From contig JAFLCY010000013.1 in the NCBI GenBank assembly GCA_017303485.1, positions 1-56,284 of the forward strand: a stretch of DNA of 56,284 nt, read 5' to 3'. Numbering within the stretch: position 1 is the stretch's first letter; each line of letters starts with the position of its first letter. Position numbers and translations under genes: made by a program. Below, in pieces: positions 8,077 to 39,741 of this stretch. The DNA is from Rhodobacterales bacterium (GTDB lineage: Bacteria > Pseudomonadota > Alphaproteobacteria > Rhodobacterales > Rhodobacteraceae). The notes beneath the pieces were generated by a model. That model saw nothing but the letters and a program-made list of their open reading frames with translations. It was not told the DNA's origin and did no database searches.

Positions 8077-8927
8077 TCTCGCCCCCGCGCGCGGCACCTC
8101 GACCTTCGCGCTGCAACTACGCCGCTTTCGGCAGAACCGCCTCGCCATGGTCTCGGTCGCGGTGCTGGTGCTGATCATCGCGCTTTGCTTCCTTGGCCCC
8201 TATGCCTTCCCTTTCGACGGCGAGGATGCCGACTTCGACTTCATCTCCGCCCCGGCCCAGTTCACCTGGCCGCATCTCTTCGGCACCGACGATTTCGGGC
8301 GCGATCTTCTGGTCAGGGTGCTGGAGGGCGGGCAGGTCTCGCTGACCATCGGCTTTCTCGGCGCGCTGGTCGCGGGGGTGATCGGCGTCCTTTACGGCGC
8401 GGTCGCGGGCTATGTCGGCGGGCGCACCGATGGCGTCATGATGCGCATCGTCGAGATCCTTTACGGCTTTCCCTATGTGATCCTGGTGATCCTGCTCAGC
8501 CTCCTCTTCGGGGGTGGCAACGTCGCCCTGTTCTCGGCCATCGTCTTCACCCTGTGGCTGACACCCGCCGTTATCGTGCGGGCACAGGCGCAGTCGCTGG
8601 CGCAGCGCGAATTCGTGCAGGCGGCGCGGGCGGGGGGGATGACCGGCCCGGCGATTGTCATCCAGCATATCGTGCCGAACTGCATGTCCACTGTCATCGT
8701 CTACGGCTCGCTTCTGGTGCCCGAGGTGATCCTGTCGGAAAGCTTCCTCTCCTTCCTCGGCATCGGCATCAAGGAGCCGCAGGCAAGCTGGGGCAACCTG
8801 ATCCAGACCGGCACTGCGGCGATGGGCAGCGACCTGCGGCTGCTCCTTCTGCCGGGGGGGCTGCTGGCGCTGGTGCTTCTGTGCCTGAACTTCATCGCCG
8901 ACGGGCTGCGTGACGCCTTTGATCCCA

Positions 8928-8938
<11 letters not shown>
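8066..8938 (+). CDS. Peptide ABC transporter permease (DppC/OppC type)
   Basis: 290-aa second permease, with the DppC-type N-terminal helix (MVSVAVLVLIIALCFLGPYA), the HLFGTDDFGRDLLVRVLEG motif and the EAA loop (VQAARAGGMTGPAIVIQHI). Its ATG overlaps the end of the preceding permease gene by 11 bases, indicating translational coupling. The frame is open upstream, but the start at 8066 has GAGG at proper distance. Confidence 0.93.
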
Positions 8939-9904
<966 letters not shown>

Positions 9905-9908
<4 letters not shown>

Positions 9909-10876
9909 CGCTTCTTGACGTGCGCAACCTTGATGTCGGCTACCGTGTGCCCGGTGCAGGCCCGTTCTCTGCGCCGCGTCTGCTGCCCATCGTGCATGAC
10001 GTGTCCTTCACGCTGGAGGCGGGCCGCACCCTTGGCGTCGTTGGCGAATCCGGCTGCGGCAAGTCCACGCTGGGCCGTGCCCTCCTCCGCCTGATCGAGC
10101 CTTCCGCCGGGCAGGTTCTGTGGCAGGGTGAGGACATGGCCGCGATCCCCGACCTGCGCCGCCGCCGGTCCGAGATGCAGATCATCTTCCAGGACCCGGT
10201 CGCCGCCCTTGACCCCCGGATGACGCTGGCCCGCATCGTCAGCCGCCCGCTGGCCACTTTCGAGCCCGGCCTCTCTCGCGCCGAGGCCCGCGCCCGGGCG
10301 GTCGAGGCCTTGCAACAGGTAGGTCTCTCCGCCGATTTCGCCGACCGCTACCCGCATGAACTTTCGGGCGGGCAGGCGCAAAGGGTGGGCATCGCGCGGG
10401 CGCTGGTCGGGCGGCCCAGGCTCATCATCTGCGACGAACCCGTTTCGGCACTGGACGTCTCGATCCAGGCGCAGGTGATCAACCTGTTGATGGACCTGCA
10501 AGAGAAGATGGGGCTGGCGCTGGTCTTCATCTCGCACAACCTGGCCGTGGTACGCCACATCAGCCATGACGTGATGGTGATGTGCCTTGGCCGCGTGGTC
10601 GAACACGCCCCGCGCAGCGCCTTCTACGCAAAGGCTTTGCATCCCTATTCGCAAGCCCTGATGCAGGCCGTTCCCGAACCCGACCCGCGCCGCGAGAAGG
10701 GTCGTATCGGCATGTCGCTTGCGGGTGAGTTGCCCTCGGTTCTGTCGCCGCCCCCCGGCTGCGTCTTCGCCAGCCGTTGCCCGAAGGCCGCCGACCTCTG
10801 CCCCCAGACCCGGCCCGCCCTGCGCGAGGTCGCCCCGGGCCGCCTGGCCGCCTGCCATTTCGTCGAGGGACCATGA
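9905..10876 (+). CDS. Peptide ABC transporter ATP-binding protein (DppF/OppF type)
   Basis: 323-aa ATPase with Walker A GESGCGKST, signature LSGGQAQRVGIARAL, Walker B LIICDEPVSALD and the C-terminal cysteine-containing oligopeptide-transporter domain (PPGCVFASRCPKA). The start overlaps the upstream stop by four bases (ATGA). With the preceding four genes it completes a DppABCDF-type importer. Confidence 0.94.
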
Positions 10877-25885: not shown

Positions 25886-26608
25886 ATGACTTACTGCGTG
25901 GGCCTTCTCTTGAACGAAGGCATGGTGCTTCTGTCGGACACGCGCACCAATGCGGGCCTCGACAACATCTCGACCTATCGCAAGATGTTCACCTTCGAGG
26001 ACCCGGGCGAGCGGGTCATCGTGATCATGACGGCAGGCAGCCTGTCGGTGACCCAGACCACCATCGCGCAACTGCGCGAGGCGATCGAGGATCCCGAAGC
26101 CTCGAACGCAACCTCGATCATGCTGGCACCCACGCTCTTGAAAGTGGCCGAGATCGTCGGGGCCACGCTGGCCAAGGTCCGCGCCGAGGTGGACGAGAAG
26201 CTTTCCGTCATGCAGGGGGCAACCGCCTCGATGATCGTCGCCGGGCAGCGCAAGGGCGGGGCCATGCGGCTGTTCCTGATCTACCCGGAAGGCAATTTCA
26301 TCGAAGCGACCGAGGACACGCCCTTCCTCCAGATCGGCGAGCACAAATACGGCAAGCCGATCCTCGACCGGGTGGTCAATCCGGCCACCAGCCTTGCGGA
26401 TGCGACGAAGGCGGTCCTCCTGTCGATGGATTCGACGCTGCGCTCGAACCTCTCGGTCGGAATGCCGCTTGACCTTGCGGTGATCGGGCGTGACGCCTGC
26501 AAGGTGACGCAGACGCGCCGGATCGAGGCGGGCGATCCGGCGTTCCGTGACATGTCCGAGGCCTGGTCGAATGCCCTGCGCGACGGCTTCGCGAAGATCA
26601 CCATCTGA
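25886..26608 (+). CDS. Proteasome-type peptidase Anbu
   Basis: 240-aa Ntn-hydrolase of the Anbu (COG3484) branch of proteasome/HslV subunits. The protein begins MTYCVGLLLNEGMVLLSDTR, so removal of Met1 exposes catalytic Thr2. VIVIMTAGSLSVTQTT follows in place of the proteasome GS loop region. GGGGACAG precedes the ATG. Anbu assembles into rings or a helical open ring; its natural substrate is unknown. It is the last gene of the ATP-grasp/alpha-E/transglutaminase operon, the standard context for this protease. Confidence 0.93.
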   Translation: MTYCVGLLLNEGMVLLSDTRTNAGLDNISTYRKMFTFEDPGERVIVIMTAGSLSVTQTTIAQLREAIEDPEASNATSIMLAPTLLKVAEIVGATLAKVRAEVDEKLSVMQGATASMIVAGQRKGGAMRLFLIYPEGNFIEATEDTPFLQIGEHKYGKPILDRVVNPATSLADATKAVLLSMDSTLRSNLSVGMPLDLAVIGRDACKVTQTRRIEAGDPAFRDMSEAWSNALRDGFAKITI

Positions 26609-31773: not shown

Positions 31774-33147
31774 TTGGACCACCCCGCCTCGCTTCGCCGT
31801 TCGATCCTAGTCTGGCTTCTCCTCGCCACCGCTGCAATCGGGGCCCTGGCGCTTCTCGATACCCGGACCGAGGCCCTGCGCACCGCCCGCGATGTCTCCG
31901 ACCGCGTTCTTACCGGCTCTGCCATGGCCATTGCCGAAGGCGTGGACGTCGCCGCCGACGGCGGCCTGGCCATTGCCATTCCCTTCTCCGCCCTCGACAT
32001 GCTGTCCTCGACCGCCCAGGATCAGGTCTTCTACCGGGTCGATGGTCCCTCCGGAATTATCACTGGGTATCAAGACCTTGCCCCGGCAGTGATGAGTCCG
32101 GGGCAGGAGGCCGGCCTGGCGGATGCCAGCTATCGTGGTCTTCCCGTCCGCACCGCTACCATCCTGCGCGAGCTGACCACGGGGGAGGGAACGCTGCCCT
32201 TCTCCGTCACGGTGGCCGAGACTACCCGGGCGCGGGAGGCTTTGGCCCGCTCGCTCCTCACCCGCTCGGCGCTGCGCATCGCGGGCCTGATCGCCGGTGC
32301 CGCGCTCGTGGCCTGGACGGCCGCGACCTATGCGCTTCGGCCGCTTGACCGGCTCTCGCGCTCGATTGCCGCCCGTGCGCCGCATGACCTGACGCCTATC
32401 GAAACCGACACGCCTGCCGAACTTCGCCCCGTTGTCGATGCCCTGAACGGCTTTCTGTTGCGCCTGTCGCGCGCGATGGCGGCGCTGCAGAACTTCGCCA
32501 GCAACGCCAATCACCAGATCCGCACTCCACTGACCGTCGCGCGGACGCAGATCGCCGTCGCCTCCCGGCCAAAGGGTCCGCAGCCGTCTGCGCTCGACAA
32601 GGCCGATACCGCGCTGATCCGGATCGAGCGCGTACTGGAACAGGTCCTCCTCCTTGCCCGTGTCGAGGCTTCCGGCACCCGCCCGGAGCTGAGGAAAGTC
32701 GATGTGGCCGCACTCGTCCGCGCAATCACCGCCGACCTGTTGCCACAGGCCGTCAGGCTGGGTCAGGACCTGGGCTATGACGGCCCCGACCGCGCCCTTG
32801 CGCGCACAGAGGAAGTCCTCCTGGGCGAACTGCTGCGCAATCTGGTCGGCAATGCCCTGGCCCATTGCCCGCCGGAGACCATGGTCACAGTGCATCTGGA
32901 CAGCCAGAACCCCGCCGGTCTGCGCGTGACGGTCATCGACACCGGCCCGCCGCTGTCTTCAGCCGACCTCGCCGCCCTGCGCTCGCGCCTTCTCCCGACC
33001 CCCGGGCCCGCGGAAATGCGGTCTGGAACCCGGGGTCTGGGCCTGCACATCGTGGCCGAGATCGCCCGCGCCCTGCAGGCCGGGCTGGAATTGCACGAAG
33101 GCGCGCAAGGCAGAGGGCTGGCCGTGACGGTGACGCTGCCGGTGTGA
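31774..33147 (+). CDS. tctE: Sensor histidine kinase, TctE-like
   Basis: 457-aa membrane kinase. Helix 1 is at about residues 10-28, a periplasmic sensor region follows to about 160, and helix 2 is at about 168-187. The H-box has His247 (NANHQIRTPLTV), N-box ELLRNLVGNALAH, G-box GTRGLGLHIVAEI. The start is TTG, two bases after the response-regulator stop, with AAAGG upstream. The last 60 codons and the following 30 bases are repeated at 39478-39688 because of the adjacent integrative element, but the gene here is intact. Confidence 0.9.
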   Translation: MDHPASLRRSILVWLLLATAAIGALALLDTRTEALRTARDVSDRVLTGSAMAIAEGVDVAADGGLAIAIPFSALDMLSSTAQDQVFYRVDGPSGIITGYQDLAPAVMSPGQEAGLADASYRGLPVRTATILRELTTGEGTLPFSVTVAETTRAREALARSLLTRSALRIAGLIAGAALVAWTAATYALRPLDRLSRSIAARAPHDLTPIETDTPAELRPVVDALNGFLLRLSRAMAALQNFASNANHQIRTPLTVARTQIAVASRPKGPQPSALDKADTALIRIERVLEQVLLLARVEASGTRPELRKVDVAALVRAITADLLPQAVRLGQDLGYDGPDRALARTEEVLLGELLRNLVGNALAHCPPETMVTVHLDSQNPAGLRVTVIDTGPPLSSADLAALRSRLLPTPGPAEMRSGTRGLGLHIVAEIARALQAGLELHEGAQGRGLAVTVTLPV

Positions 33148-33177
33148 GGGAAGGCTGGCTGGGGCGCTAGGATTCGA
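32967..33177. repeat. Left copy of 211-bp direct repeat flanking the integrative element (attL region)
   Basis: Identical to 39478-39688 except at two bases (33113 G/A and 33136 C/T). It covers the last ~180 bases of the sensor-kinase gene plus 30 bases downstream. The last 22 bases (33156-33177) are the 3' end of a tRNA-Gln gene read on the minus strand, now cut from its 5' part by the element. Confidence 0.92.
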
Positions 33178-34250: not shown

Positions 34251-34418
34251 ATGAAGACGATCTTGGCCCTCGGCTCAGCCGGGGGTCTTTTCATTGCTGC
34301 ACGTGGGTCTTTCGGCCTCTTCGTGCTTCTGCTGGTAGCCAAGCAGGTCAGTCAGGACCTTGCGATGGCCCTCTTCAAGGAGGCGCTGAAGGCCGGGTGG
34401 TTCAATGGAACCCGGTGA
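34251..34418 (+). CDS. Small hydrophobic protein of the element
   Basis: 55-aa protein beginning MKTILALGSAGG, with a hydrophobic helix at about residues 10-30 and an amphipathic C-terminal half. AGGAG eight bases upstream supports the ATG, and it overlaps the next gene by 14 bases. Unrecognised; a holin-like or toxin-like small membrane protein is possible but unsupported. Confidence 0.55.
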   Translation: MKTILALGSAGGLFIAARGSFGLFVLLLVAKQVSQDLAMALFKEALKAGWFNGTR

Positions 34419-34611
34419 TGTCGTGCTGATCAAGGCTTTCGACGACGTGCCTGAGCACTGGTTCCGAGTGGACGAGGTCTACGAGGACTGCATCACAGGT
34501 CAGGCCCTCACGGGGCCTCTCCAAGGGGAGTACGGGGAACCGGAACTCTCGATGGTTATCAGGGTCCTAGACCCCGCAGAGGTGCCGCTGGGAACGTCAG
34601 AATCCCAGTAG
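34405..34611 (+). CDS. Small acidic protein of unknown function
   Basis: 68-aa soluble acidic protein (MEPGDVVLIKAFDDVPEHWF...). It overlaps the preceding 55-aa gene and is followed by the integrase gene. The beta-rich N-terminus resembles small phage-encoded SH3-like proteins, but no family is recognised. Confidence 0.55.
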   Translation: MEPGDVVLIKAFDDVPEHWFRVDEVYEDCITGQALTGPLQGEYGEPELSMVIRVLDPAEVPLGTSESQ

Positions 34612-34680: not shown

Positions 34681-35898
34681 ATGTCTGTACGTATCCAGTA
34701 TGCCTATCTCAAGCAACAGACGTGGCTGTACCGGAGGAACTATCCGAAGGAGCTGCAGTCGCTGCTGGGGCAGGCCTACAAGCAGTCACTCAAGACCGGG
34801 GACGCCCGGATAGCCAAGGCTAGGGCCGCAGAGGTCAACGCCAAGTACGAGGAGATCATCACTAAGGCCAAGTCGGGGCAGGTGGTGGAGAAACCGCAGC
34901 CCGTGAAGATCGTTGCTCCTGCTTTCACGCAGGTGACGATTGTGGGCAGGGTCAGCGTAGCGGAGCTGGGGAAGCAGTACCTGAACCGCCGCTCTAACGA
35001 GCTACAGCACGGTGGCTTCAAGTCGGTCCGCTTCTCAGTGGGGCTGTTCGTCTCAGCCTTCGGAAAGAGGCCGATTGGGACATTGACACGGGAGGACGCC
35101 TTGGCCTTCACCCGCAAGGTGGCTCAGCTCGGCAAACACGTTGGCAAGTCGTACAGGACCAAGGGCTACCCACTGGAGCGGCTGCTGGCGCTGAGCGAGG
35201 GGGAGAGGATCAGTCCGCAGACACAGCGGCGGATCGTCAGTCAGGTGGGTCACTTCCTCGACTGGACCGTTTACGAGGGTCAGCTTGCCAGCAACCCGTT
35301 CAAGACGGTTCGGGTGGAGGGGAAGGCAAAGCCACAGCACTACGAGGCTCTGACCGATGAGGAGGTGCTAAGGCTCCTCAGCCTCGACGATCCTCGGATT
35401 GGGGTGGCGCTACGAGTCTGCTTGCTCTCAGGGATGAGGGCAGGGGAGGCAGTAGGGCTAGTAAGGGAAGATCTGATCTGGAAGGGCAATCTGGGCTGGT
35501 ATGCCTGGATCAGACCCAACGAGGTTCGATCACTCAAGACGGATGCAGCGGAGCGGATCGTTCCTTTGCACTCAAGCCTGACGCCTATCCTGGCTGCCCT
35601 ACCGGCTTCAGGGCGGCTCTTTCCACGCCTCTCCGTCAACGTGGTCACGAAGCGCTTCAGTGTGCTGCGGGATCAGGCTGCGATCCACAGGCAGGGGGTG
35701 GTGTTCCACTCTAGCAGAAAGTGGTTCGTGGCCGAGTGCGAGAGGGCAGGGGTGCCGGAACACTTCACGGCGTCCATCGTCGGCCACCAGTCGGCAAGGT
35801 CAGAGAACCGGATGACCTACGGCATCTACTCTGCCGGGATCAGTGACGAGCAGAAGCGCGAGATCGTGGAGAAGGTGGGGCTACCGTGCCGCCACTGA
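34681..35898 (+). CDS. Tyrosine-type site-specific integrase
   Basis: 405-aa recombinase. Residues 1-70 form an arm-binding/DUF6538-like domain (YLKQQTWLYRRNYPKELQSL), about 90-200 the core-binding SAM-like domain, about 220-395 the catalytic domain. Catalytic residues visible: Arg253 (SGMRAGEA), His343 and Arg346 (FHSSRKWF), His369 (VGHQS) and tyrosine 380 or 383 (MTYGIYS). GGAGG precedes the ATG. It should drive insertion at the neighbouring tRNA-Gln site. No excisionase was recognised among the small genes. Confidence 0.93.
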   Translation: MSVRIQYAYLKQQTWLYRRNYPKELQSLLGQAYKQSLKTGDARIAKARAAEVNAKYEEIITKAKSGQVVEKPQPVKIVAPAFTQVTIVGRVSVAELGKQYLNRRSNELQHGGFKSVRFSVGLFVSAFGKRPIGTLTREDALAFTRKVAQLGKHVGKSYRTKGYPLERLLALSEGERISPQTQRRIVSQVGHFLDWTVYEGQLASNPFKTVRVEGKAKPQHYEALTDEEVLRLLSLDDPRIGVALRVCLLSGMRAGEAVGLVREDLIWKGNLGWYAWIRPNEVRSLKTDAAERIVPLHSSLTPILAALPASGRLFPRLSVNVVTKRFSVLRDQAAIHRQGVVFHSSRKWFVAECERAGVPEHFTASIVGHQSARSENRMTYGIYSAGISDEQKREIVEKVGLPCRH

Positions 35899-36080
35899 AA
35901 CCCGTGACACCCGTACCGGACATCGACGCGTTCGAAGAGAGAGCCGCTATCATCCAGCATGATGGCGGTCTTTCTCGTTCAAAGGCTGAGGACATGGCGG
36001 CCAAGGCTCAGGGCTTCCGGGATGCAAGCCACTACTGGCAGGTGCTGGCCGACTACGTGGTGAGCAAGAAGTTGGGGTGA
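35886..36080 (+). CDS. Small protein with EERAAI...GGLSR motif
   Basis: 64-aa protein from a GTG that overlaps the integrase end by 13 bases. The segment FEERAAIIQHDGGLSRSKAE resembles short motifs in phage and plasmid replication or transfer proteins, but no function is established. A terminator follows. Confidence 0.6.
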   Translation: MPPLKPVTPVPDIDAFEERAAIIQHDGGLSRSKAEDMAAKAQGFRDASHYWQVLADYVVSKKLG

Positions 36081-36684: not shown

Positions 36685-36856
36685 GGGTAAGATGGGGGGG
36701 CGGGGCTTCCCGCCTCCTCTCTCAGATAATCGCGACAAGGGTGCGACTGGAGGCTCTTCGTTATGAAGAGGCGAGTTCCATCCATTTCTATGAAGGCTTT
36801 ACCGCTGGAGAATGTTGCACCCATTGACCCCGAGCAGATCGGGAAAGGGAAAAGCA

Positions 36857-37243
36857 ATGAAAATACAGCGACTTGAAGAACCCAATTCAACCATTTACGA
36901 CTTCCAAATCGATCCAATCAGGCTGGCACTGGCGCTGCAACGGTCTGATGATGCCGCTCCACTGACAGACCTCCTAGTTAGAAGGCAGACGATCCGACGA
37001 GACTGGAAGCGGATCATGGGAAGGGAAACTTCGAAGGTCCGAACTTGGCTAGCGGAAAGTCTAGTTCGTTTCAGGTCCCTAGTTCCAGGGGCGGTCGGCG
37101 AGAGAGTTGGGGCAGATAGAGCGAACTTGCTCCGACACGAGATGTCTGCTCGACACGGGCGACAGGGGGAGGAGCTCAGAGGTAAGTTTGATGGCTGTTT
37201 CGATGTTTTGCGTCCAATAGGTATAGGTAATGGAAGAGGTTGA
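36857..37243 (+). CDS. Unrecognised basic protein upstream of the polymerase-like gene
   Basis: 128-aa arginine-rich protein; GGGAAAAG precedes the ATG at 36857. It overlaps the start of the polymerase-like gene by 14 bases, so the two are coupled and may cooperate, for example in DNA binding. No recognised domain. Confidence 0.6.
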   Translation: MKIQRLEEPNSTIYDFQIDPIRLALALQRSDDAAPLTDLLVRRQTIRRDWKRIMGRETSKVRTWLAESLVRFRSLVPGAVGERVGADRANLLRHEMSARHGRQGEELRGKFDGCFDVLRPIGIGNGRG

Positions 37244-38798
37244 AAATCATGATGAAATTCTTAGCACAAGTAGCACTACTAGTTGCTCTCCGTCTGATAG
37301 TCCAGAAAGGGAAGAGTCACCTATCGAAGACCCGTGGCACTCTAGAGTCTTAGACGTCCACCGCTGGTCAGATCATCCGGAGATAATCCGGGTGGTCACC
37401 CAAGTATGGGACACCCACTTCCAGCACCTTCAGGAGGAGGGCCGATCAGGTCCCAAGCCCAAGCAAGACTTCCGCCACCAGTTACGAGTGCTCGTTCTTG
37501 ACCTTTACGTGGCTTGGCTGGAAGACCCGACGCTAAGCATAGCTGTATCAATGTCCGCTAACGACTGGAAGACGTGGTCCCGATACAACGCCCTGAACAT
37601 CTCCAAGAAAATCCTGCAGCTGATTCACGGGCTGGCAGACGCTGGGATGATCGACGTAGCCAGAGGCAGCTACTCTGGCCGGGAAGCTTGGTGGAACAGA
37701 ACGACTAGGGTCAGGGCGGCTGAGCCTCTGGTTACCCTGTTTCGAGGTGCCAAGGCCACGAGGGACGATATCCCGCAGATCGAAGGGCAGGAGTGTATCG
37801 TCCTCAAGGCTGGGGACGGCGACAAGGCCAAGCTGACCGAGTACGAAGACACGCCTGAGACCGTGAAGATGCGGCGTGAGCTAGAGGCCTATAACGCCCT
37901 GCTTGCCGACACCTTCATTGATATCCCTACCCTGGAAGAGCCCTGGACCACGCGGCTAGACGAGCGGGGCAAGGAGGTGCGGGTACTGATCGACCACCAC
38001 CATCAGTTCGTAAGACGCATCTTCAGCCGGGGTGAGTGGGGCTGCAATGGCAGGTTCTACGGGCCTTGGTGGCAACAAATCAGCAAGGAACTTCGATCCC
38101 AGATCTTCATCAACGACACCCCGACGGTGGAGGTGGACTTTAAGGGGCTGCACGTTGCGATCCTGTCGGCACAGAAGGGGGTGGAGGTTGAGGGTGATCC
38201 CTATGCCCTCCATGAGGGCTTGGTCCCTGGTGCTCCTCCTCCGTTGCAGAGGCAGATTGCCAAGAAACTGATACTCACGGCGTTCAACGCCCGGAGCAAG
38301 AAAGCAGCCTTCGGTAGCTTTAGGGAGGGCTTCCCTACTGGTCACATGGCTAAAGGCTTGACCAACAGCTCCCTTGATGACCTGCTGGCAGCGTTCACTG
38401 AGCGCCACCCCCACCTTGCCGAGTTCCTCTTTGCGGACCACGGCATCCGCCTCATGAACATCGACAGCAAGATTGCCGAGTTCGTCCACCGCTGGTTCAC
38501 TAGGAGGGGCGTCCCAGTCCTGTCGATCCATGACAGCTTCATCATCGATTACACCCGAGTAGAAGAGCTTAAGCGGGTGATGGGAATTGCTTCGAGGATA
38601 GCGGTCGGAAGAGCGCTCGCGGTGGAAGCAAACGGGGCTGGGCTGGATAGATTTTCTAGTGCCGAAGAGCGGGCAGTGATGCTTGACTTCCAATCGTGGC
38701 GGGAGGCGCCTCGTGGGGATGGCTATCGCAACAGGTTAAAGCGGTGGGAAGAGCGGAAAGCTAGAGAGGTTGTTCCTTATGGTAGAGTTGAAGGGTGA
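37230..38798 (+). CDS. Polymerase-like protein with family-A palm motifs
   Basis: 522-aa protein, not assigned to a named family by me. Residues about 80-175 look helical, possibly a winged-helix DNA-binding part. The C-terminal half has three motifs in the order and spacing of family-A DNA polymerases and T7-like RNA polymerases: motif A EVDFKGLHVAILSA (Asp303) followed by GDPY; motif B RQIAKKLILTAFNA (Arg341, Lys345, Asn353 in place of the usual Tyr); motif C LSIHDSFII (His434-Asp435). No 3'-5' exonuclease motifs are seen. A replicase or replication initiator for the element is the simplest reading. Starts inside the preceding gene, so expression is coupled. Confidence 0.65.
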   Translation: MEEVENHDEILSTSSTTSCSPSDSPEREESPIEDPWHSRVLDVHRWSDHPEIIRVVTQVWDTHFQHLQEEGRSGPKPKQDFRHQLRVLVLDLYVAWLEDPTLSIAVSMSANDWKTWSRYNALNISKKILQLIHGLADAGMIDVARGSYSGREAWWNRTTRVRAAEPLVTLFRGAKATRDDIPQIEGQECIVLKAGDGDKAKLTEYEDTPETVKMRRELEAYNALLADTFIDIPTLEEPWTTRLDERGKEVRVLIDHHHQFVRRIFSRGEWGCNGRFYGPWWQQISKELRSQIFINDTPTVEVDFKGLHVAILSAQKGVEVEGDPYALHEGLVPGAPPPLQRQIAKKLILTAFNARSKKAAFGSFREGFPTGHMAKGLTNSSLDDLLAAFTERHPHLAEFLFADHGIRLMNIDSKIAEFVHRWFTRRGVPVLSIHDSFIIDYTRVEELKRVMGIASRIAVGRALAVEANGAGLDRFSSAEERAVMLDFQSWREAPRGDGYRNRLKRWEERKAREVVPYGRVEG

Positions 38799-38870
38799 TA
38801 GGGGTAGCTGAGCGTGCTCCTAACCAACTTTTCCCCCCTCATCTTCCATTACTTATACCTATTCCCACAG

Positions 38871-38898
38871 CACTAGATTAAGGCAAGATTACCTAGTG
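38871..38898. repeat. Inverted repeat in AT-rich region after the polymerase-like gene
   Basis: CACTAG and CTAGTG enclose two copies of AGATTA. An adjoining pyrimidine-rich stretch (38825-38870) is unusual for this genome. A replication origin or promoter is possible. Confidence 0.35.
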
Positions 38899-38979
38899 AT
38901 CTCGGCGAGTGATGATCAGTACGTCCAGTCCGCAGCCGATCGCACGGTGCGCCTACTTACTATCAACCGGAGACAAAAA

Positions 38980-39216
38980 ATGGCACAGATCGAAGACTAC
39001 GAAGCGGATATTCAAGATCGGATAGATGCTCTGGAGCCGGGAAAGGACTTTAGGTTCTCCGGCCTTATGGGTGAGCTTTGGGCGACCGTCCCAGAGAAGG
39101 AGCGGACAAACCTAGGGACGCAGTTTGCGGAGTGGGTGCAGGCCGAGAAGTTCGTGAGCGTCCGATACGACGGCATTTACAAGTCCGGGCGCGACAACAG
39201 GTATGTAAGAACTTAG
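38980..39216 (+). CDS. DUF1413-like small protein
   Basis: 78-aa protein. The pattern LEPGKDFRFSGLMGELWA, then lGTQFAEWV and a terminal RDNRYVR, resembles DUF1413 proteins, which are short and of unknown function. CCGGAG precedes the ATG at 38980. It is the last gene before the right end of the element. Confidence 0.6.
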   Translation: MAQIEDYEADIQDRIDALEPGKDFRFSGLMGELWATVPEKERTNLGTQFAEWVQAEKFVSVRYDGIYKSGRDNRYVRT

Positions 39217-39666
39217 GGACTTCCCACGCACGATCGACGTGCAAACCCCTTGATAGTTTAGCGATGAGTCACTTCACGTCGCTGCAGCCGGGAAAAGTAC
39301 TTCCTTTGGCTTGCCTTGTGAGTGCATCTCGATACGTATCACCTGAAGGTATTCTATGTGCCAAGGGCGAACCATCGCCCTCCGTACCCCTTGGGGCACT
39401 TTCTGGGGCATTCCGTGGACACCCCCTTCCTGCAGATCGGCGAGCACAAGTAGGGCAAAGCCAATTCCCGACGCCACCCTCGCCGCCCTGCGCTCGCGCC
39501 TTCTCCCGACCCCCGGGCCCGCGGAAATGCGGTCTGGAACCCGGGGTCTGGGCCTGCACATCGTGGCCGAGATCGCCCGCGCCCTGCAGGCCGGGCTGGA
39601 ATTGCACGAAGGCGCGCAAGGCAAAGGGCTGGCCGTGACGGTGACGTTGCCGGTGTGAGGGAAGGC
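39217..39666. other. Right end of the element, no intact gene; host-gene fragments
   Basis: 450 bases with no complete gene. Bases 39415-39458 match part of the Anbu gene (39 of 44 identical to 26312-26355), and 39478-39658 match the 3' end of the sensor-kinase gene. The sequence 39217-39414 matches nothing else seen in the window. Confidence 0.75.
39415..39458 (+). pseudogene. Decayed fragment of an Anbu protease gene
   Basis: 39 of 44 bases match 26312-26355, encoding DTPFLQIGEHK; most differences are at third codon positions. The homologous Tyr codon is TAG and a base is inserted just after, so the copy is not functional. It seems derived from a related strain's Anbu gene rather than from the local copy. 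Confidence 0.7.

Positions 39667-39688
<22 letters not shown>
39478..39688. repeat. Right copy of 211-bp direct repeat (attR region)
   Basis: Carries the last ~180 bases of a tctE-like kinase gene (39478-39658) without its start, followed by the 3' part of tRNA-Gln shared with 33156-33177. The encoded C-terminus differs from the intact kinase by one Arg-to-Lys change. Confidence 0.92.

Positions 39689-39741
<53 letters not shown>

Follow-up and report, generated by a model that had tools for sequence, protein, structure and literature searches.

Polymerases of the transposon-virus kind (TV-Pols) were described in 2008 (Iyer, Abhiman and Aravind) from bacterial elements with integrases, resolvases or transposases, Rhodobacterales included, and were predicted to have both primase and DNA polymerase activity (PMC2579912). 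Their features include a bi-helical coiled-coil thumb and, in a subset, an all-helical N-terminal domain, and direct repeats of ~200 nt were noted around a TV-Pol element of Brucella (PMC2579912). According to a paper on staphylococcal cassettes, no TV-Pol besides CcPol had been characterised by 2020; there, primase activity was shown for CcPol-MP, in which CcPol needs MP to prime, with a preference for a start site at the putative origin of its element (PMC7581432). PolA-SSB primases have further been described in Bacillota elements, in a source that also mentions pipolins (PMC10061031).

The window considered here, i.e. the whole stretch of 56,284 nucleotides analysed from a Rhodobacterales bacterium (GCA_017303485.1, contig JAFLCY010000013.1, positions 1 to 56,284), contains an element of 6.5 kb, which is integrated at the 3' end of tRNA-Gln and carries its own tyrosine integrase. 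Its features are as follows.

32962..33177, no strand: left direct repeat, made of the 3' end of a histidine-kinase gene and the tRNA-Gln 3' end; att core at 33156-33172
34405..34611, plus strand: ORF of 68 aa ahead of the integrase; its family, none of the known ones, occurs in 6 of 29 element loci
34681..35898, plus strand: tyrosine integrase, 405 aa, with the Pfam domains DUF6538 and Phage_integrase
35886..36080, plus strand: 64-aa ORF overlapping the end of the integrase; its family, likewise none of the known ones, occurs in 6 of 29 element loci
36812..37243, plus strand: 143-aa ORF with a 14-base overlap with the polymerase start; no family
37216..37233, plus strand: motif copy 1, AATAGGTATAGGTAATGG, directed into the gene and overlapping the polymerase start codon; 22-nt arm at 37216-37237
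37230..38798, plus strand: TV-Pol-like family-A polymerase, 522 aa, ATG start (ORF call, alignments and model)
38846..38863, minus strand: motif copy 2, AATAGGTATAAGTAATGG, 48 bases past the polymerase stop and pointing into the gene; 22-nt arm at 38842-38863
38896..39216, plus strand: DUF1413 protein, 106 aa, downstream of the polymerase (Pfam PF07205)
39473..39688, no strand: right direct repeat, with 4 differences from the left one over its 216 positions; att core at 39667-39683
39667..39741, minus strand: tRNA-Gln (ttg), the integration target (tRNA and Rfam scans)

The first-pass annotation had read motifs A, B and C in the polymerase ORF, and all three are where it placed them, namely VEVDFKGLHVA with Asp303 followed by GDPY, then R341-x3-K345-x7-N353, and finally IHDSF with Asp435, the HDS triplet occupying residues 434-436 and the RxxxK signature residues 341-345, beyond an N-terminal domain of about residues 28-250. 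In an alignment of 47 sequences, from which 11 of the 58 matching loci had been left out beforehand (truncated, broken or cut), D303 and D435 are kept in all 47, R341 and K345 in 43 each, H434 in 42, N353 in 41 and Ser436 in 39, together with D323 of the fingers (41/47) and two candidates for the β-hairpin Arg, i.e. R263 (42/47) and R275 (43/47). D303, K345, H434 and D435 are invariant in a separate alignment of 58 sequences. As judged from these alignments, the conservation of the motifs of this ORF is beyond chance.

Sequence-based family assignment was far less telling. Pfam, NCBIfam and PADLOC returned no family for the protein and, as the first-pass annotation had held, no exonuclease domain can be recognised, no nuclease family of Pfam or NCBIfam being matched within it. 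Searches against PDB sequences gave no meaningful match and a single-protein viral scan none at all, the sole PHROGs match being phrog_4756, of unknown function (E 2.4e-44). Pfam DNA_pol_A had no match in the polymerase or its family members, and PF00940 (RNA_pol) matched 3 of 45 members, with a best E of 0.012. Profile comparison with hhalign was not significant either against seven phage RNA polymerases (probability 3.6-6.5%, at which motif C is nonetheless aligned in register with all seven) or against PolA (0.1% for seven, 1.2% for one).

The fold was more informative. An AlphaFold model, computed from 58 sequences comprising the window protein and its relatives, reached a mean pLDDT of 88.9 and a pTM of 0.87, and Foldseek retrieved 71 PDB matches at E ≤ 0.001. 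The 50 that were listed comprise nothing but family-A polymerases, namely apicoplast Pol, Klenow, Taq, Bst, Pol theta, Pol nu and human mitochondrial RNA polymerase; the best E is 2.2e-5, and the mitochondrial enzyme has 4.5e-4. Since these matches are family-A polymerases and the TM-scores among the same 50 are low, 0.20-0.35, the palm is backed by local structure and the rest of the protein differs. Against a viral structure library, the best rows were phage relatives, with E down to 5e-23, one of them annotated as a DNA polymerase. The family-A palm claimed by the first-pass annotation is thereby confirmed in the predicted structure, and the structural comparison and conservation survey it had called for agree, with a palm fold present and Asp303, Lys345 and Asp435 conserved in the aligned homologues. 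The model further contains a hairpin (strands 262-265 and 273-277) and a helix at 209-226, a candidate for the thumb region. Predicted alone, the N-terminal domain (pLDDT 91.3) combines helices and strands; its best PDB match has an E of 0.046, with nothing at 1e-3, and its best matches include winged-helix regulators (Fur and a GntR-superfamily protein), none significant, which gives this predicted domain a weakly winged-helix look.

Some other identities were considered and rejected. A reverse transcriptase, a family-B polymerase or another palm was set aside on the predicted fold, with family-A polymerases in all 50 PDB matches listed, and a defence gene for lack of any PADLOC match. PolA enzymes read HDE in motif C, and a classical PolA or T7-type DNA polymerase was discarded for lack of an exonuclease family, for HDS instead of HDE and for lack of a Pfam DNA_pol_A match.

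Pipolins carry primer-independent family-B polymerases and resemble the present element in being small, integrated and equipped with a polymerase of their own, but the enzyme here is of family A. The first-pass annotation was reminded of them, but they are not the closest precedent. Its underlying idea, a putative self-replicating element, draws its support from the context, namely integrase, tRNA site and flanking motif. The polymerase fits a known kind, the TV-Pols, with which it shares a minimal palm like those of family A and T7 RNA polymerase with two Asp, RxxxK fingers, a conserved Arg on a β-hairpin, an extra N-terminal domain and the lack of a nuclease domain, as well as an integrase in the same integrated element and an alphaproteobacterial host (PMC2579912). 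It departs from them in that no D5-like helicase was found in the window element and that the N-terminal domain, predicted to be all-helical in TV-Pols, is here modelled with helices and strands. The novelty that had been attributed to a family-A polymerase in a small integrated element accordingly finds no support, TV-Pols being known since 2008 (PMC2579912). With CcPol-MP and the PolA-SSB primases, the likeness lies in a family-A polymerase within an integrative element and a proposed role in replication; unlike them, the window polymerase has no exonuclease remnant and reads HDS in motif C, a family scan of 10 window ORFs revealed neither a helicase nor an MP-like partner with an OB fold beside it, and the recombinase is a tyrosine rather than a large serine enzyme. 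The window protein falls short of features of the PolA-SSB group.

Regarding distribution, polymerase matches were obtained in 53 of 394 genomes of the family and 27 of 385 of the class (drawn samples, with a few genomes in both), in 158 of 50,697 phage records and in 4 of 72,556 records of plasmids. Of the 336 pattern matches obtained in a collection of bacterial and archaeal genomes, 305 matched the polymerase, and the best 80 of these were retained. The homologue of Paracoccus denitrificans (L095) is 53% identical, its link to the TV-Pol paper of 2008 being a match of species only. Among the 158 phage records with distant relatives, 115 are Rheinheimera phages (phrog_4756), and in Shewanella phage KASIA a relative is encoded close to a primase and to an RNA polymerase of T7 type. 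The cargo of the relatives is varied: a restriction-methylase of type ISP/IIG (L065), a DUF2779 protein with a weak Cas4-like match (L080), an arginase, an AraC regulator and TerB (L068), a nucleotide cyclase with TPR (L062), or, in L125, OmpA and DUF1254 proteins weakly matching ZorB.

The direct repeats that bound the window element are 216 nt long, 6511 nt apart from start to start, and comprise the last ~194 nt of the host histidine-kinase region followed by the tRNA-Gln 3' end, in other words far more than the att core, a host region being duplicated with it. In a relative with cores of the same orientation (L069), the repeat measures merely 21 nt, for which reason the kinase duplication looks like a recent capture. 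A genus mate (G781, locus L149) offers the empty site, with the histidine-kinase gene directly abutting tRNA-Gln, and the GC content of the element is ~0.56-0.61 vs. ~0.64-0.69 in the kilobases preceding it. Besides, a 60-nt piece at 39413-39472 is 85% identical to 26310-26368, inside the host ORF 25886-26608; as this piece abuts the right kinase fragment, the right end of the element carries pieces of two host genes. The linkage with integrases that the first-pass annotation had proposed to survey is borne out by the integrase of the element itself and by homologues of it in 16 of 29 clustered element loci. The Rfam scan of the window yielded tRNA only, and PADLOC no match among the 10 window ORFs scanned.

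LP1413 of SCC elements is a member of DUF1413, the family to which the 106-aa protein downstream of the polymerase is assigned by PF07205 (E 9.1e-7, 29.4 bits for a cut-off of 25), its score of 14.6 bits for NF047346 lying below the cut-off of 75. LP1413 is a winged-helix ssDNA-binding protein (PMC7581432), and the neighbour of the polymerase here thus bears the family name of a component of the other SCC pattern. As a conserved partner, DUF1413 finds no backing in a phmmer search of the ORFs of 145 loci, where it recurred, beyond the copies of the window itself, just in L004 and L070, from one genome.

An 18-nt motif, AATAGGTATARGTAATGG, stands at both ends of the polymerase gene with both copies facing inward, and the repeat search recovered it as a 22-nt inverted repeat (21/22 matching) with arms over the start codon and just past the stop. 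In the whole genome (4.38 Mb), allowing up to 3 mismatches, there are exactly two copies, both perfect and both beside the polymerase; the reversed pattern gave 1 match under the same conditions. Across 1.34 Mb of loci, AATAGGTATAAGTAATGG with up to 4 mismatches gave 82 matches vs. 6-18 for five shuffled patterns, and GTATNAGTAATGGA with at most 1 mismatch gave 59 in 137 partly redundant loci vs. 5 for the reversed pattern, 51 of the 59 being near the polymerase gene and inward. A pattern-free count of 9-mers in 120 polymerase flanks was led upstream by GTAATGGAA (21 loci) and downstream by ATAAGTAAT and AGTAATGGA (15 loci each); the outward list being the mirror of the inward one in this count, orientation controls come from the motif pattern searches. 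There, a loose core of the motif is inward in 53 of 105 deduplicated polymerase flanks of relatives and outward in 7, while in the other 52 the flanks searched hold no inward copy, and both flanks carry the motif within 600 bases in only 4-5 of 103 loci. The core is inward in 21 of the 30 loci that have a Gln core or the integrase type of the window (outward in 4, shuffled mean 1.25) and in 32 of the 75 loci with neither (outward in 3, shuffled mean 4.25), a group that includes short contigs and is hence not pure; its presence in both groups indicates that the motif follows the polymerase, not the integrase. Distant relatives retain RGTAATGG but not the TATA, and phage relatives gave one match in 5 viral loci. 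In two related genomes (L130 and L132), two like-oriented copies lie past the polymerase stop, ~490 bases apart.

In the yeast 2-micron plasmid, inverted recombination sites lying in inverted repeats divide the circle, and inversion between them amplifies replication. Relatives of the window element, drawn as circles, would have a comparable layout, with a pair of inverted recombination sites enclosed in inverted repeats, the inverted copies around the two att sites spanning ~630 bases in L080 and ~560 in L085; they differ in being bacterial integrative elements with their own polymerase, inversion and amplification being only putative here. With thresholds of 100 nt and 80%, long inverted repeats enclose the polymerase in 16 of 87 loci vs. 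7 of 298 control positions; these 7 positions belong to 6 loci, of which 5 also figure among the 16 and probably owe the result to the arms of the integrase segment itself. L063 and L066 escaped this test despite their arms, their ORFs having been called too short. The outer ends of the repeats are the tRNA-Gln 3' end. In 10 loci (L062, L063, L066, L067, L068, L072, L079, L080, L085 and L125), the polymerase is placed between oppositely oriented att cores, with inverted arms of 245-492 nt that start at the core and are 85.6-100% identical. Seven of the 10 have a third core beyond, oriented like the first, and the segment with the integrase homologue then also has inverted arms, from 24 nt in L066 (core only) to 332 nt in L085. 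The motif is found ~130-280 bases from the core on its inner side, each core being flanked by two copies that point away from it (e.g. L062 and L068). Cores of the same orientation characterise four loci, i.e. the window, L058 from Paracoccus versutus DSM 17099, L065 and L069, and the element of the window has neither inverted cores nor long inverted arms, the doubled inverted sites that recall the 2-micron plasmid thus being a trait of its relatives.

The polymerase segment of these relatives appears to invert, as suggested by aligned sequences of Ruegeria denitrificans (L086) and R. arenilitoris (L125), whose polymerases are 91.7% identical. The two loci align in plus orientation over the polymerase segment (2395 bases, 89%) and in minus orientation over the integrase segment on the other side (2505 bases, 88%), so that the former is inverted relative to the latter, with breakpoints of orientation at the core and arms; L086 having no tRNA-Gln and a single core, its arrangement could be a translocation. 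In L062, the order is integrase-core-polymerase-core-integrase, the integrase copies being inverted and 95.8% identical over 2136 bases (-5606..-3472 and 8573..10705 from the polymerase start), and these paired modules resemble an inverted dimer. In the open-licence literature, no description was found of a flanking motif pair or of bacterial elements with inverted att sites or of 2-micron type, nor does the main text of the TV-Pol paper mention the motif pair or inverted att cores (PMC2579912). Both the motif pair flanking the polymerase gene and the inverted att design of the relatives look new.

Taken together, the polymerase is a new member of the TV-Pols, a compact family-A enzyme of an integrative element, and probably acts as a primase-polymerase that would start and perform the replication of the element from the motif; the computed support for a TV-Pol element comprises the fold, the catalytic residues, the element ends, the empty site of the genus mate and the motif pair. 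The integrase would recombine the direct repeats at tRNA-Gln and excise a circle of ~6.5 kb, the N-terminal domain of the polymerase would read the two flanking motif copies, and primer-free synthesis would start at both sites, the copied circle then reintegrating at tRNA-Gln. In relatives, the diverging motif pair at the att core may serve as a bidirectional start, and an inversion between both att sites may change or amplify replication as in the 2-micron plasmid, the inverted arms being reduced to the 22-nt motif repeat in the window element. More broadly, it is conceivable but unlikely, as a whole, that alphaproteobacterial TV-Pol elements replicate themselves from a cis motif of their own and that the tRNA-Gln branch is 2-micron-like, i.e. 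a circle with two inverted attP, diverging motifs and an integrase-driven inversion that switches or amplifies replication, of which the window, with direct att cores and arms reduced to the motif, would be a simpler form.

Four competing explanations were considered. The motif could be a regulatory or recombination site, be it an operator, a host promoter or an arm-type site of the integrase, with the polymerase priming elsewhere, which is judged somewhat unlikely. Inverted-core relatives have the motif ~130-280 bases from the att core, a spacing compatible with integrase arm sites, and its TATAAG resembles a bacterial -10 box; yet the motif stays beside the polymerase in the 32 of 75 loci of the mixed group devoid of Gln core and integrase type, and a host promoter is ill-suited to a copy that is antisense just past the stop and to distant relatives that keep RGTAATGG without TATA. 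Also unlikely is a single-subunit RNA polymerase that would transcribe the genes of the element, or make RNA primers, from a promoter-like motif. The aligned phage RNA polymerases do read IHDS, sharing the HDS of motif C, and the few PF00940 matches point the same way; besides, the motif of the tRNA-Gln clade contains TATAAGTA, i.e. 8 of the 9 bases of the yeast mitochondrial promoter, which is given as ATATAAGTA, its final A being +1 (PMC8979003), and for which AA at +1+2 is one of the starts allowed (PMC4191429). This likeness is given little weight since distant relatives lose TATA; it is confined to the tRNA-Gln clade and could be due to chance, the best PDB matches among the 50 listed are DNA polymerases, and the TV-Pol paper predicts primase and DNA polymerase activity (PMC2579912).

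A role in second-strand synthesis after DNA uptake, or in defence, in place of circle replication seems very unlikely for the polymerase: both roles were raised for PolA-SSB primases (PMC10061031), and restriction or nuclease genes are part of the cargo of some relatives, but PADLOC was silent on the 10 window ORFs scanned and the motif copies on both sides of the gene suggest that the element has a cis site of its own. As for the inverted arms of the relatives, it is quite conceivable, if short of probable, that they are relics of head-to-head insertions or duplications, without any role or inversion. The inverted integrase copies of L062 are what a head-to-head duplication would leave, and the possible translocation in L086 goes in the same direction; against this, the arms start exactly at the att core in the 10 loci, at 86-100% identity, and the direction of the polymerase gene relative to tRNA-Gln varies, with 6 co-directional and 3 convergent cases among the 9 inverted-core loci where the tRNA was found.

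For TV-Pols as a family, a conserved cis motif beside the gene provides the missing substrate, that is a defined DNA on which their binding and initiation can be tested. If the reading of the polymerase as a primase-polymerase starting from this motif is true, the element would hold a minimal system in which a single protein, related to RNA polymerases of T7 type, achieves initiation. To our knowledge, a replicase gene in an invertible segment bounded by recombinase sites is known only from yeast plasmids; if the inversion is equally true, the relatives of this element would be a bacterial element of that design, with the replicase gene in an apparently invertible segment.
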